Source of the DNA: Umezawaea endophytica
GTDB taxonomy: Bacteria > Actinomycetota > Actinomycetes > Mycobacteriales > Pseudonocardiaceae
Assembly (NCBI RefSeq): GCF_025061645.1
Contig: NZ_JANYMP010000016.1
Coordinates: 1 to 64,000, forward strand
Length of the DNA: 64,000 nucleotides
Direction: 5' to 3'
Position numbers and translations under genes: made by a program. Shown here piece after piece: positions 25,883 to 49,168 of the stretch. The notes under the pieces were generated by a model. It searched no databases. It was given only the letters and a program-made list of their open reading frames with translations, and was not told the origin of the DNA. Positions within the stretch are counted from its first letter, which is position 1. Each line of letters opens with the position of its first letter.

Positions 25883-25888
25883 CGCGCC

Positions 25889-28800: not shown

Positions 28801-31570
28801 GCGGGTCGGACGCGTCCTCCCGCACCAAACCGGCGTCCCCGCTGCCCGTGCCGCCCGTCACCCGGCCGGTGGTCGTGAAGTACTCGGCCTCCTTGCGCTT
28901 GGTGTGCAGCACGACCTGCGCGCGGCCGGTCAGCGGCCGGGCGCCGTCCGCGCCGCCGTGGTCGGTGTAGGAGGCCTCCAGGACGTAGAAGATGTCGTCG
29001 CCGTCGCTGTGGCCGGACGACAGGGTCGTCTGGACCTCGCCCTCGCACCCGGTGTACTGGTCCAGCGGGTGCCCGTGCGAGTCGTGGCCGAGGATCGCCT
29101 GGAGCCCCACCTCGGAGCACGCGACCGTGCCGTCCTCCGGGTCGGTGGCGGTGATCGAGTACCTGATCCGGTCGCCGAACTCGAACAGCCCGCCGTTGGG
29201 CGGCAGGACCAGCTCCACGGTCGGCGCGGTGTTGCCGACGGTGATCGGCACGCTGGCACTGGCGGACTTGCCGCCCGCGCCGGTCACGGTGAGCGTGGCG
29301 GTGAAGTTGCCGACGGCCGGGTAGGTGTGGACGGGGTTCGCCTCGGTCGAGTCGACCGCGCCGTCGCCCTGGAAGTCCCAGGCGTAGGTGATCTCGCCGC
29401 CGTCCGGGTCGCGCGAGCCGTCGCTGGAGAACCGGACCTCCAGCGGCGCCGGGCCGTTGGTCCGGTCCGCGCTCGCCTTCGCGACCGGCTCGCGGTTGCC
29501 CCGCACGTAGTCGATCCGGTAGATCCCGGAGTCGGTGTTGTCACCGCCGAAGCCCGAGCCCCACTCGATCAGGTACAAGGCACCGTCCGGGCCGAACTCG
29601 AAGTCCATCGGCTTCTTGAAGCCGAACGACGGGAAGATCCGGTTGACGTCGACCAGCTCGCCGCCGTCGGGCGTGAGCTGCATCGAGTACAGGTCGTCCT
29701 GCGTCCACTCGCCGAAGACGGCCTTGCCGTCCCAGTAGGCGGGCCACTTGCGGTCCGACGCCAGCTCCGGGTCGTACCGGTAGGTCGGGCCCGCCATCGG
29801 CGCGCCGCCCGCCAGTTCGGGGAACGCCGGGTCGGGGTTGTAGTGGTAGTAGGCCGTCGCGGCGAGCGCTGGCGGCAGGTCGGTCAGCCCGGTGTTGTTG
29901 GGCGAGGTGTTCTTCGGCGCGGCGCAGTCGAACGCGGCACCGGACGCGCCCGTGGCGAAGTCGTGTTCCACGTAGGGCTTGTTGTTCCCCACGCAGTAGG
30001 GCCAGCCGTAGTTGCCCGCCCCGTTGAGGATGGTCCACTCCACGGTGTTCTCCGGGCCGCGGGTCGGCGAGGCGGTGCTCGCGTCCGGCCCGTAGTCGGC
30101 GACGAGCAGCTTGTGCGTCTTCGGGTCCACCCCGACGCGGAACGGGTTGCGGAAGCCCATCGCGTAGATCTCCGGCCGGGTCTTCGCCGTGCCGGGCGGG
30201 AACAGGTTGCCCGCGGGCACGGTGTAGGTGCCGTCGTCCTCCGGGTGGATGCGCAACACCTTGCCGCGCAGGTCGTTCGTGTTGCCCGAGGTGCGCTGGG
30301 CGTCCCACGTGGACCGGCCGGAACGCTCGTCGATCGGCGTGTAGCCGTCGGAGGCGAACGGGTTGGTGTTGTCGCCGTTGGCCAGCCACAGATCACCGGT
30401 CGACCGGTCGAACGCCATGCCGCCGCCGTGGTGGCAGCACTCGGCGCGCTGCACCGGCACGTCCAGCACGACCTCCTCGCTGGCCGGGTCGAGCGTGTCG
30501 TCGGCGCGGATCGTGAAGCGGGACAACCGGTCCACGTCGACGCCCGGCGGCGAGTGGTAGAGGTACACCCACCGGTTGGTGGCGAAGTCGGGGTCGAGCG
30601 CGAGCCCGAGCAGGCCGCTCTCGTTGGCGGTGAACACGTCCAGGCGTCCGACGGTCGCCAGGCCGCCGCCGTTGGGGCGGATGACCTTGATCTCGCCGAG
30701 CCGGTCGACGTAGTAGACCCGGCCGTCCGGCGCGACCTCCAGCATCATCGGGTTGGAGGTGTTGTCGTCCAGGGTGACCTTCTCGAACCCGCTGTCCAGG
30801 TCGGCCGCGCAGTCGGCCTGCTCGACGCCCGCCGCGGTGCGCAGGCCGCCGAGCAGGTGGGCCAGGAACAGCGGGTCGGAGAACGACTCGGCGGTGTGGC
30901 CGAGGCCGGTGTACCAGGACCGGCCGCCGTCGTGGTCGCGACACCAGGAGATCGGGTGGTCCGCGCCCATCGTGCCGCCGGTGTAGGTCTTCTCGTCCAG
31001 CGACGCCAGCACGTGCGAGGTGCCGCGCGGGTTCGTGCGGAAGTCGTACCACTCGTCGGAGCGGCTCCACCGGCTCGGCAGGCCCGCCGTCGACGGGTGC
31101 GCCGGGTCCTCGACCTTCACGGTCGCCCGCTGCGGCGCGGGGTGCTGCTTGAAGTACGCGCCCACGAGTTGGCCGTACCAGGCCCAGTCGTACTCGGTGT
31201 CGGACGCCGCGTGCACGCCCGCGTACCCGCCGCCGTTCCGCACGTACCGCTCGAAAGCGGCCTGCTGCGCGGGATCCAGCACGTCGCCGGTGGTGGACAG
31301 GAACACGACCACCTGGAACCTCGCCAGGTTCTCGTCGGTGAACGCCCCCGCGTCCTCGGTCGCGACCACGTCGAAGTGGTGCTCGACGCCGAGGGCCTGG
31401 ATCGCCGCGACGCCCGCGGGGATCGAGTCGTGCCGGAACCCGGCCGTCTTGCTGAACACGAGCGCGCCGAACTCCGCGTGCCTGGCCGACGAGCGCGCGA
31501 GCGCCGACGCCGTGCCGCCGCCGAAACCGATCAGCGCGGCCAGTACCAGGACCAGTACCCGTCGAACCAC
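25889..31570 (-). CDS. Giant secreted ThuA / PQQ-type propeller / PKD / LamG-like / Ig / FIMAH protein, 1893 aa
   Basis: Approximate domain order: signal peptide 1-30. ThuA 35-255 (FSKTAGFRHDSIPAG, GGYAGVHAASDTEYDW). Sugar-dehydrogenase-like propeller 260-685 (NESGLLGLALDPDF, NTNDLRGKVLRI, GFRNPFRVGVDP). PKD 690-775 (YAWDFQGDGAVDSTEANP). Ig-like 780-890. CBM6-like 892-1030. A second PKD 1038-1127. Two LamG/DUF1349-like lectin folds 1130-1341 and 1343-1537 (NAYQQAGLVLYGDDDNYAK, EAYQQGGLIAYADDGDYVK). Three Ig-like repeats with VDGGPWSPYTAPV and LDGGAWTAYTSPV, 1543-1805. A FIMAH-like C-terminus 1808-1893. I chose GTG at 31570 because GGAGGGG stands about 8 bases upstream and a signal peptide follows. 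The enzyme modules are shared with the two downstream secreted proteins. Likely role: extracellular binding and modification of glycans. Confidence 0.85.
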   Translation of the reverse strand: MVRRVLVLVLAALIGFGGGTASALARSSARHAEFGALVFSKTAGFRHDSIPAGVAAIQALGVEHHFDVVATEDAGAFTDENLARFQVVVFLSTTGDVLDPAQQAAFERYVRNGGGYAGVHAASDTEYDWAWYGQLVGAYFKQHPAPQRATVKVEDPAHPSTAGLPSRWSRSDEWYDFRTNPRGTSHVLASLDEKTYTGGTMGADHPISWCRDHDGGRSWYTGLGHTAESFSDPLFLAHLLGGLRTAAGVEQADCAADLDSGFEKVTLDDNTSNPMMLEVAPDGRVYYVDRLGEIKVIRPNGGGLATVGRLDVFTANESGLLGLALDPDFATNRWVYLYHSPPGVDVDRLSRFTIRADDTLDPASEEVVLDVPVQRAECCHHGGGMAFDRSTGDLWLANGDNTNPFASDGYTPIDERSGRSTWDAQRTSGNTNDLRGKVLRIHPEDDGTYTVPAGNLFPPGTAKTRPEIYAMGFRNPFRVGVDPKTHKLLVADYGPDASTASPTRGPENTVEWTILNGAGNYGWPYCVGNNKPYVEHDFATGASGAAFDCAAPKNTSPNNTGLTDLPPALAATAYYHYNPDPAFPELAGGAPMAGPTYRYDPELASDRKWPAYWDGKAVFGEWTQDDLYSMQLTPDGGELVDVNRIFPSFGFKKPMDFEFGPDGALYLIEWGSGFGGDNTDSGIYRIDYVRGNREPVAKASADRTNGPAPLEVRFSSDGSRDPDGGEITYAWDFQGDGAVDSTEANPVHTYPAVGNFTATLTVTGAGGKSASASVPITVGNTAPTVELVLPPNGGLFEFGDRIRYSITATDPEDGTVACSEVGLQAILGHDSHGHPLDQYTGCEGEVQTTLSSGHSDGDDIFYVLEASYTDHGGADGARPLTGRAQVVLHTKRKEAEYFTTTGRVTGGTGSGDAGLVREDASDPLGGGQDIGGIEDGDYWTFDPISLSGIDGVRFRAASGSGGGRIEVRAISGDGPLLGAVDVPATGGWQSYRDFEVRLGPPPTLSGPLFFVVRKPDGSNDGGGLVNVNWVDFLGRGVTLNQRPDVTATATPTSGVAPLAVAFHATATDPEGDTPLTYAWDFGVAGAPKPTTADAEHTYQQPGEYDATVTVTDSKGAARTRHVHVVVDGAGPGCLSGKSDAFGDAQLDRSRWSVVREDQDLRLAGGALHIPTATGEIYGGDNSTPVPNIVVQPMPSGPWQATTKVSLVARNAYQQAGLVLYGDDDNYAKVVLSAAGTNDAANRRFQFIREERGVPNEVGDSNTPPLGAAYPDTAHVRFTSDGTRLTAAHSRDGVTWTPMPQVDKLIAGIPNPRIGLMSLASTGNRPVVDAAFDWFQLEQGTPGADEFDGPSLDTCRWDTVVRPDPTATRLAGGNLEIDTSRGDIFGGDNSAPRNFILQTPPAGDWTLDTKIDGSAFDEAYQQGGLIAYADDGDYVKLDLVTTNQPGQPVSRRIELRGEIGDVVQDPQPEIVADQGVRWLRLSRQGTEFRGYASSDGVAWTEVGAVVNTAVGSAKVGLYAFGVGQTASKTARFDFFHPTWGQAVDTTPPVTVAATDPPAPGPAGWFTGPVSVVLTATDDRALDRTEYTVDGGPWSPYTAPVAVAEGGHTVWYRSVDRAGNTETARTLDVRVDTVAPSTRATFADPGDGGWHRGAVPVALTATDAGSGVESVEYALDGGAWTAYTSPVVVTGEGTHTLLYRARDRAGAVEADRAATVKIDGTAPVLLVSGIADGRIHGDSQDLRIGWQAVDSTSGVRTTVGRLDGEVYRSGALQPLYELSLGIHRLVVAATDQAGNRTTQEITFGVTTSSRDVANLITRFQVTGWLSQADAAALQTRLTEVRKAEANGDDARTIAELRTFRALAVVQVSEVGGVLVRDTDALIAALSGPLPALRQE

Positions 31571-31619
31571 AACCCAACCCCTCCCTCGGAGCGTCCGGAC
31601 AGGACGGTTCGCTCCCCCG

Positions 31620-32921
31620 TCACCCGCTGCCGGTCGCGCTGACCCGTGCCGCGGACCGGATCGGCACGATCGCCGGGTCGTCGAAGACCGCCTCCAGCGC
31701 CGCGTTCGCGCCACCCCGCGAGGCGGCGGCGAAGCCGAGCGTCGACAGCTCCACCCGGCAGCCGCCGATGTCCGGCGCGATCACGCGGGCCCGCAGCTCG
31801 GCCCTCATCGGGCCGAGCAGGTACGGGCCCAGGCAGGCGAAGTAGCCACCGAGGACCACCGCCCGCGGGTTGACGAAGTTGATCAGGATCGCGGCGCCGA
31901 CGCCGAGCCCGGCGCCGACCCGCTCCAGCGCGTCGAGCGTGCGCCGGTCACCGGTCTCCGCCCGGCAGCGGATCATGTCGAGCCGCTGGTCGAGGCCGAG
32001 CGCCGGGTCGCTGACCGGGTCGTCGGCGTCCGCGGCGAGCCGGAGCATCCCGGCCATCCCGACCAGCGTCTCCCAGCAGCCCCGACGGCCGCAGCCGCAC
32101 TCGTGGCCCGCCGGGTCGAGCTGGATGTGCCCGACCTCGCCGGAGAACCCCTCAGCGCCACCGAGGAGCCGCCCGCCGGAGATCACCCCGGCCCCGACGC
32201 CCATCCCGCCGGTCAGGTGGACCAGGTCGGCGGTGCCCGCGACGCCGCCCATCGCGTGCTCGCCCAGCGCCGCGAGGTTCGCGTCGTTGGCGACCCGGAT
32301 CGGCATCGGGTGCTCGGCGAGCGGTCCGGTGAGCCGGTCGGCCAGCCCGCGCACCACGGGCACGTCCCGCCAGCGCAGGTTCGGGGCGAACGCGACGACC
32401 CCGGCCGCCACGTCGACCAGCGCCGGGATGGCGACGGTCACGCCGACGGGCAGCACGTCGCGGCGCTCGCACTCCCTGATGGCGCGGGAGGTCAGCCCTG
32501 CCACGGCGTCCAGCACGTCCTCCGGCGGCAGCGACGGCACGTCCAGCGCGACGCGCTGCTCGAAGAGCACCGTGCTGGTCAGGTCGAGCACCACCGCGGT
32601 CAGGTAGTCGACGTTGACCTCGACGCCGATCCCGCCGACGCACCGCCCGTCCAGCGCGACGTCCTTGCCCGGCCTGCCGACCGCGCCCGCCCGGTGCGGC
32701 TCGCCCTCGCGGACCAGGCCGCGGTCGACGAGTTCGGCGACCAGGCTCGACACGGTGGCCTTGTTCAGCCCGGTGTCGGCCGCGATGCCCGCTCGGGAGC
32801 GGGAGCCGCGGGCGCCGAGGTGCCGCAGCACCAGCGCGAGGTTGCTGCGGCGCACGGCGGCCTGGTCGGCGGGCTGCGCCGAGGCCAGAGATCGGAGGAC
32901 TGGGGAAGGGTGCACGGTCAC
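31620..32921 (-). CDS. ROK-family transcriptional regulator
   Basis: The 433-aa product has an N-terminal winged helix (RSNLALVLRHLGARGSRSRA; GLNKATVSSLVAELVDRGLV) and a ROK sugar-kinase-like body. The zinc-binding signature CGCGRRGCWE is intact. Ligand-site residues appear in ANDANLAALGEHAMG and EGFSGEVGHIQLDPAGHE. ROK repressors of this length sense sugars or sugar phosphates. It lies 49 bases upstream of the giant ThuA gene on the same strand and is the likely local regulator of the sugar operon. GTG at 32921 is used; a second GTG two codons later is equally possible. Confidence 0.9.
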   Translation of the reverse strand: MTVHPSPVLRSLASAQPADQAAVRRSNLALVLRHLGARGSRSRAGIAADTGLNKATVSSLVAELVDRGLVREGEPHRAGAVGRPGKDVALDGRCVGGIGVEVNVDYLTAVVLDLTSTVLFEQRVALDVPSLPPEDVLDAVAGLTSRAIRECERRDVLPVGVTVAIPALVDVAAGVVAFAPNLRWRDVPVVRGLADRLTGPLAEHPMPIRVANDANLAALGEHAMGGVAGTADLVHLTGGMGVGAGVISGGRLLGGAEGFSGEVGHIQLDPAGHECGCGRRGCWETLVGMAGMLRLAADADDPVSDPALGLDQRLDMIRCRAETGDRRTLDALERVGAGLGVGAAILINFVNPRAVVLGGYFACLGPYLLGPMRAELRARVIAPDIGGCRVELSTLGFAAASRGGANAALEAVFDDPAIVPIRSAARVSATGSG

Positions 32922-34514: not shown

Positions 34515-34557
34515 CACCCGTGCCCGTCTCCGACCTCGTCGGGGGCGGGCACGGGTG
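34515..34557. terminator. Bidirectional stem-loop between convergent genes
   Basis: CACCCGTGCCCG at 34515-34526 pairs perfectly with 34546-34557 (12 bp) around a 19-base loop. It lies between the stop of the HATPase-like gene (34505, plus) and the stop of the PKS-glycosyltransferase gene (34563, minus). Confidence 0.65.
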
Positions 34558-34562
34558 TGTTC

Positions 34563-37500
34563 TCACCCCCGCGCGGCGTAGGACTCCAGGTGGGCGGCGG
34601 CCGTGGCGGCGCCGCCCGCGTCGTGGAACGCGGCCCGGACGCGGCCCGCCGCCGTCCGGTAGGCGGGGTCGTCCAGGACGGCGTCCAGCGCGGCGCCGAT
34701 GTGCCTCGCCTCCGCCAGCCCGAACCGCACCTGCACGCCCGCGCCGACGCCCTCCACCTGGGCGGCCACGATTGGCTGGTCGTCGCGGATCGGGGCGACG
34801 ACGAGCGGCAGCCCCTGGTTCAGCGCCTCGCAGACGGTGTTGTGGCCCGCGTGGCAGATCACCGCGTCCACCGACCCCAGCAGCTCCAACTGCGGGACCG
34901 CGGGCAGGACCAGCACGTCGTCGTCGGACGCGCCCACCTCGCCGGTCGGGTCGACCACCACGGCCTGCACGCGGGACGAGCGGGCCCGCACCGCCTCGAC
35001 CGCTTCCTTGAGGAACCGAGACCCGGCGCCCACGCTGATCGTGCCCAGGCTGATCAGCACCAGCGACCGGTGCGGGTCCAGCCGGTCCCACGGGAAGTCC
35101 ACGGCGGACGGTCGGGGGTGCAGCGACGGGCCCACGTAGGCGATGGGTTCACGTCGGGGGATCGGGCCGACCAGGTCCTCGGTCGTGTAGGCCAGCACGA
35201 GGTCCGGCGAGTACCTCAGGTCCGCCGACGGTCCGCCGTAAGCCTTGCGCAGCCCGGCGAACAGCCCCTGGAGCCAGTCGAGGACCTTCGGCAGCCCCGC
35301 CTCCATGTCGATCAGCTCGGCGGGCGTCGTGGCCGACGTCGCCCACGGCAGCCCGGCGGCCCCCGCGACCAGCGCGCCCGCCAGCGCCTGCTGGTCGGCC
35401 ACCACGACGTCCGGCGCGAACTCCTCCACCGCCGCCCGCACCCCCGGCACCATGGCGTGCGCCAGCGGTTCCAGGAACTCCTCCCACATGACCTTGATCG
35501 ACCGCATGCTGCGCACCTCGGGCCCGCGCTCGGTCCAGCGCTCGGCCGCCGGGGGCACCGCGCAGTCGAACACCACCGCGTCCGGGCCCAGCGCCGGGCG
35601 CAGCAGCGGCTCGTACCCTGCCCACGCGACGGTGTGGCCGCGCTCCACGAGCCGGGCGGCCACCCCGATCGTCGGGTTCACGTGACCGGTCATCGGCGGC
35701 ACCACGAACAGGAACCGGCGGGCCACCCCGTCCCCACCGGACGGGGCAGGCGGCCGGACCGCGAGCGGGTACGACGGCGGCGGCGCGAGGACCGGGTCGG
35801 CGTTGGCGCGCAACTGCGCCACGACCTCGTCCACCAGCGTCCCCACCCGCAGCGAGATGAGCTGGTCCAGGTCGAGGCCCCGGAGGAACGAGAACACGTC
35901 CACCCGGCCGCCGTAGAACGCGCCGAGCTGCCCCAGCAGCACCGGCAGGTCCGTGCCGATGCTCTCGAACTGGAGGTCGGTGTGCAGGTCGGTGTCGCGG
36001 GTGATCGACCCCGCGGGCACGCCGTAGTCGCCCAGCACGCGGACCAGGATCTCCGCGACTTCGCGGTGCACGACTTCGGGGTCCACGGTGGTGGGCATCA
36101 GGTCCTCCGGATGGGTGGGGGAAGTGGGTGTCGACGCGGTGAGGACCGGTCGACCGTCCTGGGGGTCGACGACGTGCCAGCGCCCCCGCACCGGGTCGCC
36201 GTCGATCCGGCTGGTGGTGGGCGGAGGACCGTGCGGCACCAGCCTGGTGATCCGCAGCACCCGGCCCGGTCGCACGCGCAGCACCGACCGGACGATGTTC
36301 TCCAGCGCCGCCAACGGGAGCGCGAGCGGCGGGGTCAGCGGGACGGTCCACAGGTCGGCGGGCGTCGGCTCGCGCACCACGGCGGTCCGGTCCACCGGGC
36401 CGGGGCCCTCGTGCCAGGTCGCGACCGGGATGACCGCGCCCAGCCAGCGGCCGGGCCCCGGAACGGCCGCCTCGCGCGCGGCGCGGACCGCGACCGGCGG
36501 GCCGTCGACCGCCAGCGGCTCGTAGCCGAGGCGGAGTTCGGCGACCGGGCCCAGTCCCGGCCGGTCGTACCGCACGTCCACCACCAGTCCACCGTCCACA
36601 GTGGACAACGTGGCGGTGCGCCGCAGCCCGAGCGCTCCCCCGTCCAGCCGGAGGCCCTCCAGGCACACCGCGATGTCGCCGATCCAGGCCACCGGCGGCT
36701 CGTCGCCCGCCGGGTGGACCCACACGGCGGACGCGAGCGCGTTCTCCAGCAGCACGCCCACCGGCACGGCCGAGTGGCCGGACACGGTGAAGTCGGTGAG
36801 CACGGGCGCGCTCGCGGCGTCGAACAGCACGTCGGCGACGAACTCGACGCCCGGCCGGAAGCCGACGGGCGTGCCGAGGTGGAAGATCCGCGGGTAGACG
36901 GCGGCGAACTCCGGCACCTCGCGGTGCAGCGGGAACCCGCGCACCTGCACGGGGTTCAGCGCGCTGCCGAGCGCGCCGAGGAACGTGACCTCGCCGTGGG
37001 TGGGGGCGAGCAGTTCCGCCGACCAGCGCCGGACGCCCTCCTCCGCGCCGATGGCGGTCATGTACCGGACGGCCGCGTCGTAGTTGGTGATCAGCCCCAT
37101 CCGCTCCCACGTCGGCCAGCACAGCGTGGTAACGGGGAACGGAGCGCGCGCGTCGGCCCAGAGCCCGAGCCTGGTCAGGCCGTCGTTGGCCGCCGCGTAG
37201 GCGATCTGGCCGACCATCCCGCCGAGCCGTCCGCTCATGGACCCGGTGTTGCAGAAGAACTTCAGCGGCCGGTCGCGCAGCGCGTCGAACAGGTGCGCGA
37301 AGCCGTCGACCTTGGTGGCCACGGTCTTCAGGACGTCGTCGTCCGACATCCTCGGGAGCCGGGTGGCCAGATCGACGCCCGCGTTGTGCACCACGCCGGT
37401 CAGCGCGGGCCCGAGCCGCGCCAGCAGCGCGTCGACCTGCGCGCGGTCGGTGAAGTCGCAGACCTCGTAGTCCAGGCGCAGCCCGTCGGCCCGCGCCGCG

Positions 37501-38387
37501 GCCACGTTGGCGGCGAGCACCCGCCGCTGGGCCATCCTGGTCGTCTCCGCGCGGACCGCGGCCAGCGTGCCCTCCGCGCTGGCCCTGATCCACAGGTCCC
37601 GCTGGTGCGCCTTGAACCCGTCGTCGTCCAGCGCGCCCCACGCGTCGTCCGGGCCGGGCAGCGGGTGCCTGCCCGTAACGACCACCCGGCAGCCGTGCGT
37701 CGCGGCCAGGGTCGTCGCGGCGGCGAACCCGATGCCCCGGCCGCCGCCGGAGACCAGCACGACGTCCGACGCGTCGAGGTCGACGGTCGGCTCCGCGCCG
37801 TCCTCACGGCGGGGCGCGAGGGTGTACCGGACGCCGCCGGAATAGCCGACCTCGTAGAGGCCCCACCGGTACAGCTCGCGCACCAGGATCGACGGCAGGT
37901 CCGCGACGTCGGCCGGGTCGACGTCCACGACCTTGGTGTTCAGGTTCGGCAGTTCCTGGTGCAGCGTCTTGGCCAGCCCGGCCCACAGCCCGCCCCACGG
38001 CCGGTCGCTCACGCCCCGGTACCCCATCCGGCCACCGAGGTAGGTGACGGCGACGTAGCAGGTCCTGGCGGCGTCGGTCTCCTCGGACCAGGCGTCGTAG
38101 CAGCCGCGGATCGCGCCGATCGTGCGCAGCAGGGCGGGCCACCAGTCGGCGGAGAACCCGGCGTCCAGGGTGAGGTCGACGATCCCGTCCGGCCGGTCGT
38201 CCGCGTCGCGCAGGTGCCCCTGGCCGACGAGCACCACGCCGTGCGAGACCAGTTCGGCCCCGACCGCCGCCAGCGTCTCGTCCGTGCCGCCGATCAGCAG
38301 GATCCGCTTGCCCGCCAGCGCTTCCGCGGGCGAGGGGTCCGGTGTGGACGTCCGGCGCGGATGCCAGGCGAACCGGCGGGTGCTCAC
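34563..38387 (-). CDS. PKS KR-DH-ACP fused to GT1-type glycosyltransferase, 1274 aa
   Basis: Residues 1-200 form a KR-like structural subdomain (GKRILLIGGTDE). An NADPH-binding ketoreductase follows (about 205-450; VVLVSGGGRGIGFAAATTL; catalytic Tyr in GQIAYAAAND). Next is a hotdog dehydratase-like region (475-760; TDFTVSGHSAVPVGVLLENA). The carrier domain (763-870) has its Ser in LQFESIGTD instead of the usual DSL. The glycosyltransferase (885-1274) has RRFLFVVPPMTGHVNPTIGV and the donor-site segment HAGHNTVCEALNQG, as in macrolide-type GT1 enzymes. GTG at 38387 overlaps the P450 stop (GTGA). An internal ATG at 36098 with its own GGAGG could also give a 511-aa ACP-GT. Predicted role: reduce, dehydrate and glycosylate a carrier-bound acyl chain. 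Confidence 0.85.
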   Translation of the reverse strand: MSTRRFAWHPRRTSTPDPSPAEALAGKRILLIGGTDETLAAVGAELVSHGVVLVGQGHLRDADDRPDGIVDLTLDAGFSADWWPALLRTIGAIRGCYDAWSEETDAARTCYVAVTYLGGRMGYRGVSDRPWGGLWAGLAKTLHQELPNLNTKVVDVDPADVADLPSILVRELYRWGLYEVGYSGGVRYTLAPRREDGAEPTVDLDASDVVLVSGGGRGIGFAAATTLAATHGCRVVVTGRHPLPGPDDAWGALDDDGFKAHQRDLWIRASAEGTLAAVRAETTRMAQRRVLAANVAAARADGLRLDYEVCDFTDRAQVDALLARLGPALTGVVHNAGVDLATRLPRMSDDDVLKTVATKVDGFAHLFDALRDRPLKFFCNTGSMSGRLGGMVGQIAYAAANDGLTRLGLWADARAPFPVTTLCWPTWERMGLITNYDAAVRYMTAIGAEEGVRRWSAELLAPTHGEVTFLGALGSALNPVQVRGFPLHREVPEFAAVYPRIFHLGTPVGFRPGVEFVADVLFDAASAPVLTDFTVSGHSAVPVGVLLENALASAVWVHPAGDEPPVAWIGDIAVCLEGLRLDGGALGLRRTATLSTVDGGLVVDVRYDRPGLGPVAELRLGYEPLAVDGPPVAVRAAREAAVPGPGRWLGAVIPVATWHEGPGPVDRTAVVREPTPADLWTVPLTPPLALPLAALENIVRSVLRVRPGRVLRITRLVPHGPPPTTSRIDGDPVRGRWHVVDPQDGRPVLTASTPTSPTHPEDLMPTTVDPEVVHREVAEILVRVLGDYGVPAGSITRDTDLHTDLQFESIGTDLPVLLGQLGAFYGGRVDVFSFLRGLDLDQLISLRVGTLVDEVVAQLRANADPVLAPPPSYPLAVRPPAPSGGDGVARRFLFVVPPMTGHVNPTIGVAARLVERGHTVAWAGYEPLLRPALGPDAVVFDCAVPPAAERWTERGPEVRSMRSIKVMWEEFLEPLAHAMVPGVRAAVEEFAPDVVVADQQALAGALVAGAAGLPWATSATTPAELIDMEAGLPKVLDWLQGLFAGLRKAYGGPSADLRYSPDLVLAYTTEDLVGPIPRREPIAYVGPSLHPRPSAVDFPWDRLDPHRSLVLISLGTISVGAGSRFLKEAVEAVRARSSRVQAVVVDPTGEVGASDDDVLVLPAVPQLELLGSVDAVICHAGHNTVCEALNQGLPLVVAPIRDDQPIVAAQVEGVGAGVQVRFGLAEARHIGAALDAVLDDPAYRTAAGRVRAAFHDAGGAATAAAHLESYAARG
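36096..36108 (-). promoter_or_regulatory. Internal Shine-Dalgarno and ATG inside the PKS-GT fusion gene
   Basis: On the minus strand, GGAGG (36108-36104) stands exactly 5 bases before ATG (36098-36096), in frame with the rest of the ORF. Translation from here would start MPTTVDPEVV, the first residues of the carrier domain. No stop separates it from the upstream KR-DH part, so both a fusion and a separate ACP-GT protein could be made. Confidence 0.6.
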
Positions 38388-39727
38388 GACGGCACGCGGG
38401 ACGCGGTCATCAGCACGTTCGGCATCGGGCGCAGCGACGCCTTCGGCCACATGCCGATCGGCCTGCCGGGCGTCGAATCCACCCGCACGCGCCCCACGAC
38501 GGTGGCGACGACGAGCTGGACCTCCATGAGCGCCGCCTCGAATCCGATGCACTTGCGGGCTCCGCCCCCGAACGGGTAGTACGCGTACTTCGGCCGGTCC
38601 GCGACCTGGTGCGCGGGGCAGAACCGCTGCGGATCGAACGCTTCCGGGTTCTCCCACAGGCTTCGGCTGTGCTGCGTCACGTAGGACGACAGCAGCACCG
38701 AACTGCCCGCCGGGACGTGGTAGCCGCCGATGGTGTCGTCGGCGACCACGTCACGGGGATAGGACCACACCGCCGGGTAGAGCCGCAACGACTCGGACAC
38801 GACCTGCTTCAGGTACGGGAGGTCCGCCAGGTCGTCGACGGTCGGCGTCCGTCCACCCAGGACCTCCGCCACCTCGGCTTCCAGCCGCCTGCGCACCTCC
38901 GGGTGCCGGGACAGGGCGTGCAGGGTCCAGACGATGCTGCACCCGGTGGTCTCGTGGCCCGCGAGGAACAGGGTCTTCAGCTCCGCCAGCACGGCCTCGC
39001 GCGGCCACGGATCGCCGTGCTCATCGCGGGCGGCGAGCAGCGCGGACACGACGGTGTGCTCCTCGACCTCACCGCGCACGTGCCGCTCCACCACCTCGTC
39101 CATCACGCGGTCGAGCGTGGCCCGGTGGCGGGTGGAGGTCCGCCGGTAGCGGGTCGGCACCCAGCGCGGCAGCAGTTGCGACACGGAACCGCTGCGCAAC
39201 ACCGCCTGCATGGCGAACAGGGTCGCGGGCTGGAGCTCGGCGGAGTACGGCCTCAGGTCGACGCCGAGGAACATCTTCCCGAACACGCCCATGGACAGCG
39301 TCATCACGTCGTCGGTCACGTCGACCACCTCGCCGCGGTCGGCCGCGCCTTCCCACCCGGCGACCAGGTCCTCGGCGCACTCCGTGATGGCGGGCGACTT
39401 CTCCACCAGCCGGGGCTTGTGGAAGAACGGCTGGCTGACCTGTCTGCGCTCGCGCCACTCCGCGCCGTCGGTGGTGAGCATCCCGCGGCCGAAGAACAGG
39501 TCGAAGTTGCCGTAGAACTTGCCCCGCACGTAGTTCTTCGCGTTGTCCTGGAGGATGTGCTTGACCGCGTCGGGATCGCTGACCAGGTGCACCACGAACG
39601 GGCCGAGCGAGATCCGCACGATCCCGCCGTGCTCCTGCTCCATCGCCGTCACGAACCCGATGGCGTCGCGGTCGAAGCGGCCGAGCTGGCTGCCTTTCGG
39701 GCCGGGCGCGATTACCTGGTCAGCCAC
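38384..39727 (-). CDS. Cytochrome P450, fatty-acid-hydroxylase-like
   Basis: The 447-aa P450 has the I-helix oxygen-activation motif LFLAGHETTG, the K-helix ESLRLYP and the heme-binding loop YPFGGGARKCIGFEAAL, all intact. The overall pattern (long form, AGHETT, PFGGGxRxCIG) resembles the CYP102/CYP4-like class that often hydroxylates fatty-acyl chains. There is no fused reductase, so ferredoxin partners must come from elsewhere. The GTG at 39727 has GAGGAG 8 bases upstream. It lies 21 bases after the large PKS gene and its stop overlaps the PKS-GT gene, placing it in the operon as a tailoring oxygenase. Confidence 0.9.
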   Translation of the reverse strand: MADQVIAPGPKGSQLGRFDRDAIGFVTAMEQEHGGIVRISLGPFVVHLVSDPDAVKHILQDNAKNYVRGKFYGNFDLFFGRGMLTTDGAEWRERRQVSQPFFHKPRLVEKSPAITECAEDLVAGWEGAADRGEVVDVTDDVMTLSMGVFGKMFLGVDLRPYSAELQPATLFAMQAVLRSGSVSQLLPRWVPTRYRRTSTRHRATLDRVMDEVVERHVRGEVEEHTVVSALLAARDEHGDPWPREAVLAELKTLFLAGHETTGCSIVWTLHALSRHPEVRRRLEAEVAEVLGGRTPTVDDLADLPYLKQVVSESLRLYPAVWSYPRDVVADDTIGGYHVPAGSSVLLSSYVTQHSRSLWENPEAFDPQRFCPAHQVADRPKYAYYPFGGGARKCIGFEAALMEVQLVVATVVGRVRVDSTPGRPIGMWPKASLRPMPNVLMTASRVPS

Positions 39728-39748: not shown

Positions 39749-42700
39749 TCACGCCTGCGTCAGCGCGGCGGTGAGCGGGTCGACGTGCCCGAGCGCGGTC
39801 GCCTCGACGTCGTGGATCTGGGCCACCACGCGGCCGTCGGCCGTGGTGGCGACGAACCGGTTGACCGGCGCGGACCGGCCGACGGTCGACTCGGCGGGCG
39901 TGGCGTACAGCTCCAGCCCGCCGTGCCGCACGACGAGGTCGTGGTCGTCGGCCCGCTGGTAGAGGTCGATGCGGCGGATGGACACGGGGACGGCCACCGG
40001 CAGCAGGCCGTCGACCGGGGCCAGCGCCTCGGTGCGGATCATGGCGTCGAGCAGCACGGCGGGGACGCCGTACCCGGACGGGCGCGTGGCGGTGGGCGCG
40101 AACCTCGCGCGCTTGCCCTGCGGGTGCCAGCGGGTGTCCGTGGTGGCCACGAACGGTCCGGTCAGCAGCACCGGCGAGGACGCCAGGTGGTACGGGTCGG
40201 GCAGGGCGACCTCGTCGTCCTGCGGCCACGCCTCCCAGTGCGGCGCGCGCGGGAACTCCCGTGCGAGGCGCACGACGACGCTGCTCAGCAGCCGGTCCTC
40301 GACCAGCGGGACACCGCCGGGCGACACGACGTCGACGGTGATCCGCACCCGCACCGTCGTCACGCCGTCGCCCTGCTCCAGCAGGCGCGCGGAGATCCGC
40401 TTCGGCCCGGCGGGCCGTGCCTGCACGAAGTGGTCGAACCGCAGGTCGGTGAAGCCGATGACCTCCTGGTCCGGCACGAGCCGCGCGGCGGCCTCGGCGG
40501 CGAGCGCGGTGACCCAGCTCGCGGGCACGGTGGGCGTGCCCCGGACCAGGTGGTGCGCGACGTCCGGGACGGACTCGGGGTCGAACTCGCGCACGACCTC
40601 GGTCGGCGGCCCCAGGTCCGCGGATTCGAGGTAGCCGGGGTACAGCTTCCGGCCGAGTTCCAGCTCCGCGTCGCCCATGTGCAGCACGAACGGGTGCCGG
40701 TTGGCCGCGTGCAGCTCGCGGACGAAGTGCCGGACGCCCTCGCTGATCGCCATGTGCGTGTACAGGCCGCCGCGCTTGAAGTACGAGCGGGCCAGCGCGT
40801 CCGCGCCGATGCCGACGCCGTCCCACAGGGTCCAGCCGACGGTGAACTCGTCGGTGCCGGACAGGGTGGCCGCGTGGTCGGCCGCCGAGGCGAGGAAGTC
40901 GTTGCCGGAGCCGTAGTCCAGCTCGCCCGCGAGGCCGAAGTGGCCGAGCAGCGAGCCGAAGTTGCACCACAGCGCGGGCGGCCGGGTCCTCAGCGCGCTC
41001 TTGAGGTTGCGGTAGCCGTCGACCTTGAGGTCGCGGATGGCGCGGAACTCGGCGAGGTCCTTGTCCGGGATCAGCGCGGACCGGTTGCGGCCCGCCGCGT
41101 TGATCACCAGGTCGATCCGGTCGTGCGCGGCGAGCACGGCGGCGACGGCGGCCTCCACCGACGCCGGGTCCGTCACGTCGCAGGTGAGGTAGGTGACCCG
41201 GTCCGCGCCGCAGTGCTCGACCATCTCGGCGATGTTGCGGTGCGCGGCGCGGGCGTCGACCATCCGGTCGAACTCGCGGTTGAGCCCGGCCACCAGCGCG
41301 CCGCGGCGGCCTGCCAGCTCGGCGCGGATGAAGTGGCTGCGCCCGGCGGCGAACTCCTCGTCGGTGCCCTCGAACACCTCGGGGCCGTAGCGGTCCAACG
41401 GGTTGCTGCCCAACAGGTACAGCCGCGGCCGGAACGTGCGCGCCAGCTCCTTGACGACCTCCGCGGTGATGCCGCGCGCGCCGCCGGTGGCCAGCACGAC
41501 GGAGTCCTCCGACAGCAGCGCGCCCGCCGGGTCGGGCAGGTCGACCGCCTCCGGCACGAGCACCAGCGTCTTGCGCACCGTGCCGCCCGCGGGGTCCGCG
41601 TCGAGCACCACGACCGGGTACAGCCGTTCGGCGGCGCTCTCCCGCTCGGTCCGGCGCACGGCCGCCGCCAGGTCCGAGCCCGCGGTGAACAGGCCGAACG
41701 TGTGGCAGCGCGGCAGCTCGTGGAAGGTGCACTTGACCAGCGCGGCGAACAGGCCGTGCGCCGGGTGGTCGCGGCCGTCAGGCCTGGCGCCGAGCAGCAA
41801 CGAGAGGAACGAGCTGTCGCCCGCGGCCAGCACGTCGTAGCGCTCCTGCACCACCAGGAACGCCGCCTCGTGCAGCGCGGTGAGCCGGTCGTCGCCCGCG
41901 AGCACGGCGGCCGAGGTCGACACCGCGCCGAGGTCGGCGACCAGCCGCAGGTGCCGCGCGGACGACCCGGAGAGCAGGCTGCGGACGGCGAGCGGGGTGC
42001 GTTCGGTCAGCTCGTGCCAGCCCGCGCGGGCCTCGCGCAGCGGCCGGGTGGAGATCACGACGGCGTGGTCCGGCACGTCGACCGAGGCGAGCAGGTCGGG
42101 GTCGTCGGTCAGCACGACCACGCCGGGCGGGAAGAACGGGATCTCGGGGCGGACGTCGCGCGCGGGCGCGGGCCGCAGTTCCGGCACGTACCGGCTGACC
42201 TCCGGGGGCGGGGCGTCCGGGTCGGTGAACTCCGGCGGCAGCAGACCGGCGGCCTTCTCCGCCACCGTCAGGTCCACGCGCACGCCGTCGCACACCACGC
42301 TCACCGGACCGGCGGGCCCGGTCAGCGCGCGGGCCAGCGCCACCGCCCCCGCCGCGCCCGTGTAGCGGGAGTACTCCGCCGCGTCGACGGTGCGGCGGGC
42401 GTCGCCGTGCGCGTCCACCGTCGCCAGCACGGGCAGGCCGTGGGCCGCCGCGGTCTCCTCGGTCGTCAGCGCGAACAGGAAGGCGCCTTCGGCGAGTGCT
42501 TCGCCGGGGCTCACCAGGTCGCCGAGCAGCGCCCGGTACTCGGGCAGCGCGTTGCCGTTGAACCCGCCCACCAGCGCGAAGTCCAGCTCCCCCGCCGCCA
42601 GGTAGCGGTGCGCCACGTCCAGCGCGCTCAGCGCGGAGGACAGGCCGGAGTCCAGGGTGATGTTGGGGCCGTTGAGGTCGAAGTAGTTGGCCGTCCTGGC

Positions 42701-45409
42701 CGAGATCACGTTCGCCATCATGCCGGGGAACGAGTCCTCGTTGGACGGTGGCACCAGCCTGCGGACCCGCGCGGACAGGGCTTCGGTGAACTCCGGCGGC
42801 AGGCCCAGCGCGGGGTCGGCCGCCAGTCCGGCGGCGATGTCGTCGAGGTAGCAGCGAGTGGCGTAGAGCATCGCCGAACGGGTCGGGCCGAGGTTGCCGA
42901 CGACCACGCCCGCGCGTTCCGCGCCCTTCTCCCACAGGTCACCGAGCTGCTCGCGCAGGTCGCGGGCGCAGTGCAGGGCCATGAGCTGGCACCGGTCGAC
43001 CGTGCGGACGGTGGAGGCGGGCAGCCGGACCTCGGCGAACGGCGGTGACGGGTAGAACTCGCCGAAGCTGTCGTCCGGCGCGCGGCCCCCGTGCAGCCAG
43101 CGGACGACGTCGTCCGAAGTGGACAGTCCGGGCAGGTGGCCGGACCAGCCGACCACGACGACCGGCCGGTCGGTGTCGGGCGCCGTGCGCGCAGGAGCGC
43201 CGGGGACGTGGTCGCGGAGCAGCACGTGGGCGTTGGTGCCGCCGAACCCGAAGCCGGACACCGCCGCCGTCCTGGGGGTCGCCCCGGCGCGCGGCCACGG
43301 CCGGGCGGCGAGCGGCACGGTCAGGCCGGTCTCGGCCATCCGGAACTCCTCCGGCGCGGCGGAGAACCGGTGCTGCGGCGGGATGGTCTCGTGCCGCAGC
43401 CCCAGCACGGCCTCGATCACCGACACCACGCCCGCGGCCCACCCGGTGTGGCCGATGAGGGACTTGTTCGACGTGACCGCCGTCGGTCCCGTGGTGCCGA
43501 AGTGCTTGCGCAGCGTGGAGAACTCGGCCAGGTCGCCCGCCGGGGTGCCGGTGGCGTGCGCGAGGACCCAGTCGACGTCCTCACCGCCGCGCTCGCGGCC
43601 AGCGAGGGCGCGGCGCACAGCCAGGTCCTGCCCGTCGGCGTTGGGCGCGTAGACGGCCTTGCCCCGGCCGTCGGACGACGAGCCGACCGCCTCGACCACG
43701 GCCAGCACGCGGTCACCGTCGGCCTTGGCGCGGCTGAGCTTCTTCAGCACCACGACCGCCGCGCCGTCGGCGAAGACCACGCCGTCGGCGTCGGCGTCCA
43801 TCGACCGCACGTCGCCGCGGCTGGACAGGCCCTGGAGCTTGGCGAAGAGCACCGTGCCGCGCGGGGCGAGCGCGAACGCGCCACCGCACACGGCCACGTC
43901 CTGCTTGCCCATCAGCAGGCCCTTCACGCCGATGTCGATGGCGTACAACGAGGACGAGCACGCCGTGTCGACCATCGTGGTCTCGGTGCCCTCGGGCAGC
44001 AGGCCCTTCATCGCGAGCGCGGCGACCCGGTGCGGCAGGAACCGCGACGGCTCCTCGACGCCGCGCCAGTACCGGGTGCGCAGCGCCTCCGCGACACCGT
44101 CGTGCAGTGCGCCCCGTTCGACGTCGGTCAGCGGCAGCTCGGCCAGCACCTCGGCGGACAGCCCGGTGGCCGCCGCCAGCACGCCCGCCTCCTCCAGGTG
44201 CTGGCTGCCGTCGGCGGTGTAGCCGACGAGGAACGAGAAGCGGTCGTCGCGGCGGGTGGTGACGCCGTCGAGCGCCTGCACCAGCGAGTGCCGCAGCCAG
44301 CGGGTCGTCAGCTCGTCGTCGGCGTGCCCGGACGGCACGCCCGCGCCGTCGGCGGGCGTGAAGCCGGTGATGAAGACGCCGTTGTCCTGGTAGCCCTTGT
44401 CCTCGCGGGAGTGGTCGGGCGAGTGGAAGCTCGCCCGTTCCCAGCGGTCGTCGGGGGTGGGCGTGAACAGCTCCGCGCCGTCCAGCCGCAGCCGCCAGAA
44501 CTCGTCCGGCCCGTTCGCGCCCGAGACGGCCATGCCCATGCCGACGATCGCGATCGTGTCGTCGTGGTCGTCGACGGGGTCCGGTTCCGCGACGGGCGGC
44601 TCCGGTGTCGCGACGGGCCTCGTCCGCCGCGGCGCGAGGGTCGCGGCGCCGAGGCTGAGACCGCCGTCGGCGAGGATGACCTGGCCGGTGATCCACGCGG
44701 CGTCGTCGGAGGCGAGGAACGCCACCACGCGGGCGAACTCCTCCGGTGTGCCGAGCCTGCCGGACGGGGTGGCCTCCGCGATGACCCGCTGCATGTCCCG
44801 CGCGTCGGGGAACTGGTCGGCCACGTCGCTCACGAGCATCGCGGCCGACGCCGCGTTGACCCGGATGCCCAGCGGGGCGAACTCGACCGCGAGGTAGCGC
44901 ATGGCCGCCTCGGCCGCGGCCTTCGCGGGGGCGCAAGCAAGGTAGTTCGCCATCACCATTTGGGAACCACCGAGCGCGGACACCGTGACGATCGACCCGC
45001 CGCGACCGGCCATCAGGGGCACGGCCAGCCGGGCGCACCGCAGTCCGCCCTTGAGGTTGGTGTCGAGCGCCCGGTCCAGCAGCTCGTCGGTCACCTCGTC
45101 GACCGGGACGAGCGCTCCGTCGGCCGCGTTGTTCACCAGGATGTCGAGGTGGCCGAATCTTTCGCGGATCTCGTCGAACAGCCTGGTGGTCTGATCCTCC
45201 CTGGCTATCGAAGCGCGCAGGAGGTCGACGCGGGCACCGGTCGCCTCGAGTTCCGCCCTGGTCCGCTTGGCGGCGTCGTGCGAGTGGAAATAGTTGATCA
45301 GAACGTGGGCGCCGCGGGATGCGAGTTCCGCGGCGATGGCCTTGCCCACTCCCCGCGCGCCGCCCGTCACCAAGGCGAGTTTCCCGGTGAGCTCACGCAT
45401 AGTGCTCAT
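39749..45409 (-). CDS. PUFA-synthase-like PKS: SDR-KS-CLF-KR-DH, 1886 aa
   Basis: Domains: free-standing-type SDR/FabG at 1-255 (LALVTGGARGVGKAIAAEL; MVMANYLACAPAKAAAE). KS 285-735 with catalytic Cys in DTACSSSLYAID, His in LAHATGTPAGDL and SLIGHTGWAAG. A second thiolase-fold domain 755-1100, where the active-site region reads LDSGLSSALSALD: the Cys is Gly, as in chain-length factors. KR 1300-1525 (VVLATGGARGITAEVVKEL). DH-like hotdog 1600-1886. KS-CLF fusion is typical of PfaC of PUFA synthases; an N-terminal FabG-like domain on the KS is not. No AT, ACP or ER is present, so it must work with the upstream AT-ACP protein. ATG at 45409 lies 4 bases past that gene's stop. Confidence 0.88.
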   Translation of the reverse strand: MSTMRELTGKLALVTGGARGVGKAIAAELASRGAHVLINYFHSHDAAKRTRAELEATGARVDLLRASIAREDQTTRLFDEIRERFGHLDILVNNAADGALVPVDEVTDELLDRALDTNLKGGLRCARLAVPLMAGRGGSIVTVSALGGSQMVMANYLACAPAKAAAEAAMRYLAVEFAPLGIRVNAASAAMLVSDVADQFPDARDMQRVIAEATPSGRLGTPEEFARVVAFLASDDAAWITGQVILADGGLSLGAATLAPRRTRPVATPEPPVAEPDPVDDHDDTIAIVGMGMAVSGANGPDEFWRLRLDGAELFTPTPDDRWERASFHSPDHSREDKGYQDNGVFITGFTPADGAGVPSGHADDELTTRWLRHSLVQALDGVTTRRDDRFSFLVGYTADGSQHLEEAGVLAAATGLSAEVLAELPLTDVERGALHDGVAEALRTRYWRGVEEPSRFLPHRVAALAMKGLLPEGTETTMVDTACSSSLYAIDIGVKGLLMGKQDVAVCGGAFALAPRGTVLFAKLQGLSSRGDVRSMDADADGVVFADGAAVVVLKKLSRAKADGDRVLAVVEAVGSSSDGRGKAVYAPNADGQDLAVRRALAGRERGGEDVDWVLAHATGTPAGDLAEFSTLRKHFGTTGPTAVTSNKSLIGHTGWAAGVVSVIEAVLGLRHETIPPQHRFSAAPEEFRMAETGLTVPLAARPWPRAGATPRTAAVSGFGFGGTNAHVLLRDHVPGAPARTAPDTDRPVVVVGWSGHLPGLSTSDDVVRWLHGGRAPDDSFGEFYPSPPFAEVRLPASTVRTVDRCQLMALHCARDLREQLGDLWEKGAERAGVVVGNLGPTRSAMLYATRCYLDDIAAGLAADPALGLPPEFTEALSARVRRLVPPSNEDSFPGMMANVISARTANYFDLNGPNITLDSGLSSALSALDVAHRYLAAGELDFALVGGFNGNALPEYRALLGDLVSPGEALAEGAFLFALTTEETAAAHGLPVLATVDAHGDARRTVDAAEYSRYTGAAGAVALARALTGPAGPVSVVCDGVRVDLTVAEKAAGLLPPEFTDPDAPPPEVSRYVPELRPAPARDVRPEIPFFPPGVVVLTDDPDLLASVDVPDHAVVISTRPLREARAGWHELTERTPLAVRSLLSGSSARHLRLVADLGAVSTSAAVLAGDDRLTALHEAAFLVVQERYDVLAAGDSSFLSLLLGARPDGRDHPAHGLFAALVKCTFHELPRCHTFGLFTAGSDLAAAVRRTERESAAERLYPVVVLDADPAGGTVRKTLVLVPEAVDLPDPAGALLSEDSVVLATGGARGITAEVVKELARTFRPRLYLLGSNPLDRYGPEVFEGTDEEFAAGRSHFIRAELAGRRGALVAGLNREFDRMVDARAAHRNIAEMVEHCGADRVTYLTCDVTDPASVEAAVAAVLAAHDRIDLVINAAGRNRSALIPDKDLAEFRAIRDLKVDGYRNLKSALRTRPPALWCNFGSLLGHFGLAGELDYGSGNDFLASAADHAATLSGTDEFTVGWTLWDGVGIGADALARSYFKRGGLYTHMAISEGVRHFVRELHAANRHPFVLHMGDAELELGRKLYPGYLESADLGPPTEVVREFDPESVPDVAHHLVRGTPTVPASWVTALAAEAAARLVPDQEVIGFTDLRFDHFVQARPAGPKRISARLLEQGDGVTTVRVRITVDVVSPGGVPLVEDRLLSSVVVRLAREFPRAPHWEAWPQDDEVALPDPYHLASSPVLLTGPFVATTDTRWHPQGKRARFAPTATRPSGYGVPAVLLDAMIRTEALAPVDGLLPVAVPVSIRRIDLYQRADDHDLVVRHGGLELYATPAESTVGRSAPVNRFVATTADGRVVAQIHDVEATALGHVDPLTAALTQA

Positions 45410-45413: not shown

Positions 45414-46919
45414 TTACTTGGTGGCGGCAACTGGGTAATCGAGGTGGCCTTCGACGATGGCGGCGAGCACGAAGTCGACGATCTTGCCCATCGTGTCGTA
45501 GTCGGCGAGTCGAACTCCCCGAGCCAGCTCGGAAATGCCGTAGCGGGACGCGACGCGCGTCATCAACTCGATTTGCTTGACCGAGTCGACACCGAGTTCC
45601 GCCTCCAGCAGGACGTCGTCGGTGAAGACCTCTTCGGGGTATTCCAACGCCGTGGCGTAAACCGACCGAACCTCCACCAGCAGGTTCTCGCGGTCGATCT
45701 TCACGCTGGGCACGGCGGCCAGTTTGACCACCGGGGGCTCCTGCGGTTCCACCGGCAGCGGCACGAGTCGGATGGGCGCGGGCGGGGTGACCGGGTCGTG
45801 CCCGGACGTGAACGCGTCCAGCCGGTCGGCCACGAGGTCGGCGATCTCGCCGCGGTGCTCGGCCCAGAACGCGGCGAACACCGCGGGGTCGACACCGGGG
45901 GCCAGGGTCTCGCCGATGCGCCGCACCGACTCGCCCTTCAGCAGGCCCGCGGCGCGCAGCGCCGCGACCGCGCCGGTGAGCGCCAGCACCTCGTCCCGGC
46001 CGCGCGCGAGGGTCGACAGCGAGGTCGTGCCGTTGGGCACCACGGCCGTCACGAGCTTGCTCAACGTGGTCAGCGCGCCGACCTCCACGAACACCCGGCC
46101 GCCGTCGGCGTGCACCCGGCGCAGGCCGTCGGCGAACGCCACCGGCTGGACGAGGTGACCGGCCAGCAGGTCGGCCAGCACGTCCTCCTCGCTGTAGTAG
46201 CGGCGCAGGATCGGGGAGTAGACGCGCACGTCCATGCGGTGCCGGGGCAGTCCGCGGATGCGGTCGGCGAACTCGGCGACGGCCGGGCGCAGCACCGGCG
46301 AGTGGAACGGGAACGGCGAGTTGAGCCGCACCGAGCCGATGCCGAGGTGGCGGGCGACGACCTGGAGCGTGTCCATCCCGGACGCCGCCCCGCTGACCAC
46401 GACCTGGCGGTCGTCGTTCTCCGCGGCGACGGCGACGAAGGGGTCACCGACGAGGTCCACGAGCAGTTGCGCGCGCGTGCGCGGGGTGCTCAGCGCGACC
46501 AGGTACCCGTCCGGCGAGACGGCTTCCACGGCCAGCACCCGGTGGGCGACGACGCGGGCGCCGTCCTCGATCGAGTACGCGCCCGCGGCGACGAGCGCCG
46601 CGATCTCGCCGAGGCTGTGGCCCATCAGGACGTCCGGCCGGAGGCCCTGCGCGGCCAGCACGAGGTGCGTCGCGACATCGCTCGCGTAGATCGCGAATTG
46701 AGACACCCACGCGTCGTCGCGGAGCAGATCGGTGATGTCCACCGGACGGGGACCGAACACGACGGGGGAAAGCGGGCGGCCGAACATCTCCTCGGCGACC
46801 CGGTCGACGGCGGTGAAGACCTGCGCGACCTCGGGATGTTCCCGGTGAGCCGCGCGGAGCAGCTCACCATCGAAAGCGCCCTGCCCAGGGAAGAGCAGGA
46901 CCACTTTTCCTTCAGCCAT
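45414..46919 (-). CDS. Acyltransferase-ACP didomain protein of the PKS
   Basis: The 501-aa product has an N-terminal malonyl/acyl transferase (about 1-310). It has LLFPGQGAFDGELL, the nucleophile Ser in LMGHSLGEIAALVAAG, and PFHSPVLRP with the catalytic His. After a Pro-rich linker there is a carrier domain (about 410-490) with the phosphopantetheine Ser in LGVDSVKQIELMTRVA. The VDSVKQIEL form is close to the carrier domains of PUFA synthases and the related heterocyst glycolipid PKSs. ATG at 46919 has AGAGG upstream; the longer frame to 47075 is in the promoter region. It is the first gene of the four-gene operon. Confidence 0.9.
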   Translation of the reverse strand: MAEGKVVLLFPGQGAFDGELLRAAHREHPEVAQVFTAVDRVAEEMFGRPLSPVVFGPRPVDITDLLRDDAWVSQFAIYASDVATHLVLAAQGLRPDVLMGHSLGEIAALVAAGAYSIEDGARVVAHRVLAVEAVSPDGYLVALSTPRTRAQLLVDLVGDPFVAVAAENDDRQVVVSGAASGMDTLQVVARHLGIGSVRLNSPFPFHSPVLRPAVAEFADRIRGLPRHRMDVRVYSPILRRYYSEEDVLADLLAGHLVQPVAFADGLRRVHADGGRVFVEVGALTTLSKLVTAVVPNGTTSLSTLARGRDEVLALTGAVAALRAAGLLKGESVRRIGETLAPGVDPAVFAAFWAEHRGEIADLVADRLDAFTSGHDPVTPPAPIRLVPLPVEPQEPPVVKLAAVPSVKIDRENLLVEVRSVYATALEYPEEVFTDDVLLEAELGVDSVKQIELMTRVASRYGISELARGVRLADYDTMGKIVDFVLAAIVEGHLDYPVAATK

Positions 46920-49140: not shown

Positions 49141-49168
49141 CCTCCGGCGGAAATGCCCGCCCCTCTCC

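Follow-up and report, generated by a model that had tools for sequence, protein, structure and literature searches.

Glycosylation of polyketides and lipids is generally treated as a post-release step. In the literature searched, with subscription papers mostly outside scope, the only proven precedent of glycosylation dependent on an acyl carrier protein (ACP) was found in mitomycin biosynthesis, where MitB glycosylates 3-amino-5-hydroxybenzoic acid (AHBA) bound to the ACP MmcB, according to in vitro mass spectrometry and binding data in the accessible part of that study (PMC8621148). A comparable reaction, i.e., a glycosyltransferase (GT) acting on an ACP-tethered substrate, is proposed here for a gene of Umezawaea endophytica located on the minus strand of a 64,000-nucleotide stretch (contig NZ_JANYMP010000016.1, positions 1 to 64,000; hereafter the window). 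In a single frame, this gene encodes a ketoreductase (KR), a domain with the fold of a dehydratase (DH), an ACP and a GT of the GT1 type. In the reading that we favour, with a probability of about 0.5, the KR would yield a beta-hydroxyl, the inert DH would leave it in place and the GT would glycosylate the ACP-bound chain. The mitomycin system differs in having its ACP and GT on two proteins and AHBA as the acceptor, and the accessible part of the study describes no fusion to a KR or DH. No ACP-GT fusion was found described in the literature searched.

Other systems resemble the locus in part. Heterocyst glycolipids (hgl island) are made by an iterative synthase similar to those of polyunsaturated fatty acids (PUFA), with a chain length factor (CLF) and a GT yielding the glycolipid; however, in the available sections of PMC11804610, HglT is a separately encoded protein that acts on the aglycone at the end of the pathway, and a thioester reductase is given in a figure legend. 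The PUFA (Pfa) and pfa-like synthases of Shulse and Allen combine ketosynthase (KS), CLF, acyltransferase (AT), ACP, KR, DH and enoyl reductase domains that are split or fused in various ways (available part of PMC3098273), and fusion and reshuffling are known features of Pfa-like clusters (PMC3098273; PMC13291983, both in their available parts). The main text of PMC3098273 contains no word starting with “glycosyl”. Compared with these synthases, the KS protein of the window scores under the PfaA cut-off and carries a FabL-like short-chain dehydrogenase/reductase (SDR) at its N terminus. Finally, cassettes encoding an ACP, a hydrolase and a GT beside KS-AT polyketide synthase genes contain a homologous ACP and GT, but as separate genes with a hydrolase, whereas the fused gene joins the ACP-GT part to KR and inert DH and the hydrolase is gone. 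The fusion can be regarded as a new variant built on known kinds, namely a carrier-dependent GT and a PUFA-like synthase. Its features are as follows.

34563..38387, minus strand: fused gene, domain order KRn-KR-psiDH-ACP-GT, 1274 aa, single open frame without internal stop
37773..38387, minus strand: N-terminal structural KR half (KRn), residues 1-205, aligned across 9 family members
36948..37772, minus strand: KR domain, residues 206-480, from PF08659 (E 5e-24) and alignment
36123..36947, minus strand: DH-fold domain without catalytic His (psiDH; Phe533 at that position), residues 481-755, from alignment, hhalign to the active DH and Pfam on the family
36099..36122, minus strand: junction tail, from alignment with stand-alone KR-DH homologues
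36104..36108, minus strand: GGAGG, 5 nt 5' of an in-frame ATG at 36098, identical in 3/3 species
35793..36098, minus strand: ACP domain, residues 764-865, with phosphopantetheine Ser809 in ESIG, from homology and without Pfam match
34566..35741, minus strand: GT1 glycosyltransferase domain, residues 883-1274, from Pfam and motifs

An earlier sequence-only reading of this DNA had reported one frame of 1274 codons with KR, DH, carrier and GT1 domains in an order for which it knew of no characterised enzyme. This frame was found intact and complete in all three genomes of the genus, i.e., also in Umezawaea tangerina (L012, 7715-11536) and in the genome G022 (L095, 14482-18303), whose proteins are both 83% identical to that of the window. 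A stop or frameshift near position 36100 was looked for and none was found, the three genus genes showing no frame-changing indel. Over the three species pairs, the ratio of nonsynonymous to synonymous substitution rates lay within 0.15-0.45 in each of the five domains; therefore, all five domains are under purifying selection. In both halves of all three fused genes, third-position G+C was 0.957-0.971. The window assembly is a 65-contig draft, which leaves room in principle for an assembly or sequencing artefact joining two genes. However, G022 is a single-contig genome, and because the same frame is intact in three genomes about 17% diverged in protein, the chance of an artefact is negligible and the fused frame is real. 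Beyond the genus, the KR-DH-ACP-GT fusion was not found in the genome sets searched, which bears out the unusual domain order, and a plasmid search returned only two Streptomyces records, both matching the GT part alone. As for the suggestion that close homologues might always carry the two halves as separate genes, this is the case outside the genus wherever examined, but not within it.

The fused frame begins with a GTG at 38387 overlapping the stop codon of a cytochrome P450 gene (GTGA) and ends with a TGA at 34563. Both homology and the third-codon-position G+C bias at 34563-38387 agree with the minus strand, and a plus-strand open frame at 34557-38579 was taken as a shadow on these grounds. 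A scan for terminators 3' of the gene gave nothing. Pfam called only the KR and the GT on the fused protein. The KR keeps the Ser/Tyr/Asn pattern in the alignment, which we take to be the catalytic motif. The GT matched PF00201 (E 1e-14; UDPGT score of 54.7 for a cut-off of 19.5 bits) and EryCIII-like_C (E 2.8e-12). Its motifs GHVNP (with His902), Asp998, CHAGHNT and DDQ are kept, the GHVNP and Asp regions align to YjiC, and the His and Asp residues are presumably catalytic. YjiC UDP-glucosyltransferases were among its best solved relatives, and the label of macrolide-type GT given in the sequence-only reading had to be abandoned, TIGR01426 scoring 157.4 bits against a curated cut-off of 260. 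No PP-binding match was obtained by Pfam in the ACP region even at E 1. This domain was called from its 41% identity (E 7e-19) to a paralogue on contig C20 of the same genome, the free-standing ACP of a cassette, together with the retained Ser.

The DH domain of the window protein was left without Pfam call, while PKS_DH_N was matched by 6 of the 12 family members (E up to 1; best 3.6e-6) and an hhalign profile comparison to the partner protein's active DH gave an E of 7.8e-8. At the His position of the HxxxGxxxxP motif, F, V or C was found in nine of the 12 members of the fused-gene family and the motif was missing in the other three, hence no His at all, whereas the H, G and P of the motif are kept in 12/12 partner-protein DH domains. 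An active DH was rejected on these catalytic residues. Judged by its sequence, this is a domain with a DH fold but without catalytic His, so that the DH initially proposed holds as a fold and not as a dehydratase. A PDB search with the alignment of the DH-fold domain gave two chance-level matches only.

Three further genes belong to the same cluster.

38384..39727, minus strand: cytochrome P450, overlapping the start of the fused gene (PF00067, E 6e-83)
39749..45409, minus strand: SDR (FabL-like, Y-x6-K)-KS-CLF-like-KR-DH protein, DH His kept; start codon chosen in this analysis
45414..46919, minus strand: acyltransferase-ACP protein; start codon chosen in this analysis

The fused gene is the last of these four minus-strand genes, which overlap or are spaced by a few to about 20 bases and therefore look co-transcribed. 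They are predicted to encode an iterative synthase similar to those of PUFA and heterocyst glycolipids. The DTACSS site of the KS and the DSGLSSAL site of the CLF-like domain, which we assume to denote an active KS and a CLF, occur in the window and in both Umezawaea relatives. The PfaA model TIGR02813, with a cut-off of 1010.1 bits, gave 317.6 for the KS protein and 62.4 for the fused protein, both short of it. No PfaD-type enoyl reductase was called by Pfam in the four genes or found among the 25 NCBIfam families listed for two of them. The FabL-like SDR, at 44645-45394 on the minus strand of the window, fronts the KS in one frame here and in seven other loci (L086, L087, L089, L090 and L092-L094). 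It scored 228.7 with the FabL model, below the cut-off of 328, and carries the Y-x6-K pattern, presumably a sign of enoyl reductases; in this family of synthases, it probably serves as the enoyl reductase. The ACP of the AT protein and that of the fused protein gave no alignment, and the fused ACP was rejected as a copy of the former.

The origin of the KR-DH half was approached with residues 1-755, the best few candidates being scored per genome and the own genome being included. Matches were found in 13/297 genomes of the family and 5/394 of the class, 14 of these genomes lying beyond the genus. The surroundings were read for 13 of the 14 (L086-L094 and L165-L168; G012 was available only as a short locus), at least 7 kb 3' of KR-DH being covered in 11/13, while the contig ends 1-2 kb after the gene in L166 and L167. 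Where covered, the core consists of AT-ACP, a KS-CLF-KR-DH protein that is mostly SDR-fronted, and KR-DH. Six aligned stand-alone KR-DH proteins stop where the fused ACP begins, or at most about 20 residues earlier. In L092-L094, the KR-DH unit is fused in frame to a preceding KR-DH pair, and its DH motif is absent altogether. None of the 13 clusters read contains a GT match, nor was a cassette-type ACP found in them by a profile search, E values of 0.025-0.035 in L092, L093 and L165 being unconvincing; the model included two fused ACPs among 14 seeds and so favours fused ACPs. Among the genes found 3' of KR-DH are P450, acetyl-CoA carboxylase parts, SnoaL, glyoxalase and MMPL. A P450 lies directly 5' of KR-DH in 8/13 of these clusters, and this association in clusters with no GT nearby suggests another source of the glycosylated hydroxyl: it would be made by the P450 and not by the KR, the KR-psiDH part performing ordinary chain reduction in trans for the synthase. 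We regard this as unlikely, since it leaves unexplained why KR-psiDH, and not the P450, was joined to ACP-GT.

The ACP-GT half has a different distribution. A search of genome contigs with this half gave 61 relatives, and whole-genome searches for the GT, including the own genome, gave matches in 118/297 family, 49/394 class and 9/396 phylum genomes (cut-offs of 1e-70, 1e-70 and 1e-60, respectively). The ACP Ser is residue 46 of the query and, among the matches listed beyond the genus, none starts before residue 57; therefore, no listed match outside the genus spans the ACP Ser and the GT together. Gene layout was counted at 127 loci, some species being repeated; once GT pieces of under 700 bases had been dropped, 128 GT places remained. 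The order ACP, hydrolase, GT was found at 101 of them and ACP followed by GT without hydrolase in between at 16, while six were fused and five had less than 1.6 kb upstream. The six fused places represent three species (U. tangerina three times, G022 twice and the own genome once). Thirteen of the 16 places without intervening hydrolase are proteobacterial, and there the hydrolase comes after the GT in 13/13; the three others are second GTs of Dyadobacter. A deltaproteobacterial locus (L049) has the order ACP, hydrolase, GT. A G-x-S-x-G site and an alpha/beta fold characterise the hydrolase. The cassette adjoins paired KS-AT proteins of PfaA-like type, and in the actinobacterial cassettes read its genes overlap or are almost contiguous. 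This orphan cassette spans Actinomycetota, Bacteroidota and Pseudomonadota (L015, L017, L021, L045, L053, L056 and others). In the Dyadobacter cassettes L063, L064 and L070, the GT gene is followed in tandem by a second one, whose branch is very long, and one or two TGA or TAG codons lie inside class-level GT matches (L112, L114, L115, L120, L123 and others), which may reflect decay, frame ends or assembly errors.

The nearest cassette homologues of the fused protein show 40-45% identity in the ACP and 56-60% in the GT. The ACP Ser is retained in 120/120 ACP rows, duplicates included, while ESIGTDLP, with a two-residue insertion after the Ser, was found in all six fused rows and in none of the 114 others. 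ACP and GT divergence are correlated (Mantel r of 0.914, n = 111, 0/1000 permutations), a value that shared ancestry inflates. In a tree of 118 GT sequences built by a quick method, the three fused GTs group together with a support of 100 inside the actinobacterial clade, on a long stem (0.67) and with no firm sister. The window genome also has an ordinary ACP-hydrolase-GT cassette on each of the contigs C20 and C3; given the long stem and the lack of pairing with these paralogues, there was no support for the fused GT as a recent copy of either. Both systems, i.e., synthase and cassette, occur unlinked within one genome, e.g., in G141, G015, G230, G252 and G439. By these comparisons, the Umezawaea gene is a chimera of the KR-psiDH end of a lipid synthase and an ACP-GT part from another system.

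At the inferred ancestral gene boundary, the GGAGG and the in-frame ATG may also yield a free ACP-GT protein. Taken further, this would mean that the start at 36098 makes free ACP-GT in excess and that the long fusion is a functionless read-through of a lost stop. The identity of this site in three species speaks for such a scheme, as do the 18 residues before the ATG, which are 94% identical compared with 76-91% in the domains and 35-41% in the Pro-rich, fast-changing linker between ACP and GT. However, synonymous sites at the junction are not unusually constrained (changes in 5/18 codons against 0.361 overall, ranking about 364 of 1228 windows from the most constrained), and neither strong synonymous constraint nor conserved RNA structure was found there, RNA folding being ordinary. 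Besides, the Shine-Dalgarno match is longer at another internal ATG (codon 961), comparable sites are found in neighbouring genes, and the frame is without stop codon in all three species. With these points against it, a functionless long product appears improbable. A free GT was considered as well: between the ACP end and the first GT strand, the window has a GTG at 888 and U. tangerina a GTG at 865, while G022 has no start codon between 851 and 895. No start is common to the three species and a free GT is therefore not a conserved option, although a species-specific start may give one.

The proposed glycosylation on the carrier would proceed as follows. The cassette ACP and GT would have come to lie 3' of a KR-psiDH gene and been joined to it in frame, with loss of the hydrolase. 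The grown chain would reach Ser809 of the fused ACP and, as the kept residues suggest, the KR would reduce its beta-keto group. The DH-fold domain, lacking the His, would be unable to dehydrate, and the beta-hydroxyl would remain. The GT would then move a sugar from a nucleotide sugar onto a hydroxyl made by the KR or the P450 before the chain leaves the ACP, and release would follow through a hydrolase in trans or another route. Fusion of an ACP and a GT that are otherwise neighbours points to their joint action. This reading is supported by the fusion in 3/3 genomes, the purifying selection, the ACP Ser, the GT motifs, the co-divergence of ACP and GT and the contrast between the DH-fold domains without His and the partner DH domains that keep it. 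The glycosylation of a carrier-bound chain put forward in the sequence-only reading is plausible, MitB being a precedent (PMC8621148, accessible part). Conversely, the release by sugar transfer put forward with it is chemically unlikely. Indeed, the acceptor in a GT1 reaction has to be a nucleophile, which a thioester is not.

Several points weigh against glycosylation on the carrier. The ACP is unrecognised by Pfam, and the insertion after its Ser might weaken loading. With a start codon and GGAGG at the junction, the KR-psiDH and ACP-GT parts may work separately as well. A search at E up to 0.1 of the window and of five stretches from the two relatives found no cassette-family hydrolase, which leaves the proposed route without a release enzyme of this type. 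GT1 enzymes usually take free acceptors, and the ACP could accordingly serve for tethering only, docking the GT on the synthase for glycosylation of the released product. The GT of the heterocyst glycolipid pathway, the closest type of pathway known, would be the model, since it adds glucose to the aglycone as the final reaction (PMC11804610, available part), and the unusual insertion and missing Pfam recognition of the fused ACP would fit. On the other hand, the fused ACP retains its phosphopantetheine Ser and shows purifying selection, and no release enzyme of the cassette type lies nearby, which makes tethering alone doubtful, if worth serious consideration.

Other genes of the window lie apart from this cluster. 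At 54003-63998 on the minus strand, a nonribosomal peptide synthetase (NRPS) region cut by the window end has condensation, adenylation and carrier domains, two of each, and a thioesterase; MbtH, P450 and ABC transporter genes accompany it, and it is conserved in both Umezawaea relatives. The NRPS genes at 57417-63998 and the synthase cluster are both conserved across the genus, so that synteny speaks neither for nor against their belonging to one pathway. Between the two biosynthetic clusters, at 48502-49744 on the plus strand, a small RelA/SpoT-domain protein is followed by a sigma-70-family (ECF-like) factor. Three large proteins at 19625-31714 on the minus strand mix ThuA, glucose/sorbosone dehydrogenase, PKD and CBM6 domains, and are adjoined by a ROK regulator at 31620-32921.

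A wider reading, held tentatively at somewhat less than even odds, is that on one polypeptide the KR reduces the carrier-bound beta-keto chain, the hydroxyl stays because the DH is dead and the GT glycosylates it in cis on its own ACP, and that in all ACP-hydrolase-GT cassettes of Actinomycetota, Pseudomonadota and Bacteroidota glycosylation on the carrier would precede hydrolytic release, because the argument drawn from the fusion extends to the cassettes. If true, this would represent an on-line glycosylation module for a fatty-acid-like synthase. With a conserved covalent joint between an ACP and a GT whose genes are neighbours in three phyla, carrier-bound glycosylation becomes directly testable with one purified protein. 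Such a result would also assign a role to an orphan cassette that is widespread, the GT homologue of which is present in 118/297 family genomes, and ACP-GT would be a potential ready part for glycolipid engineering.

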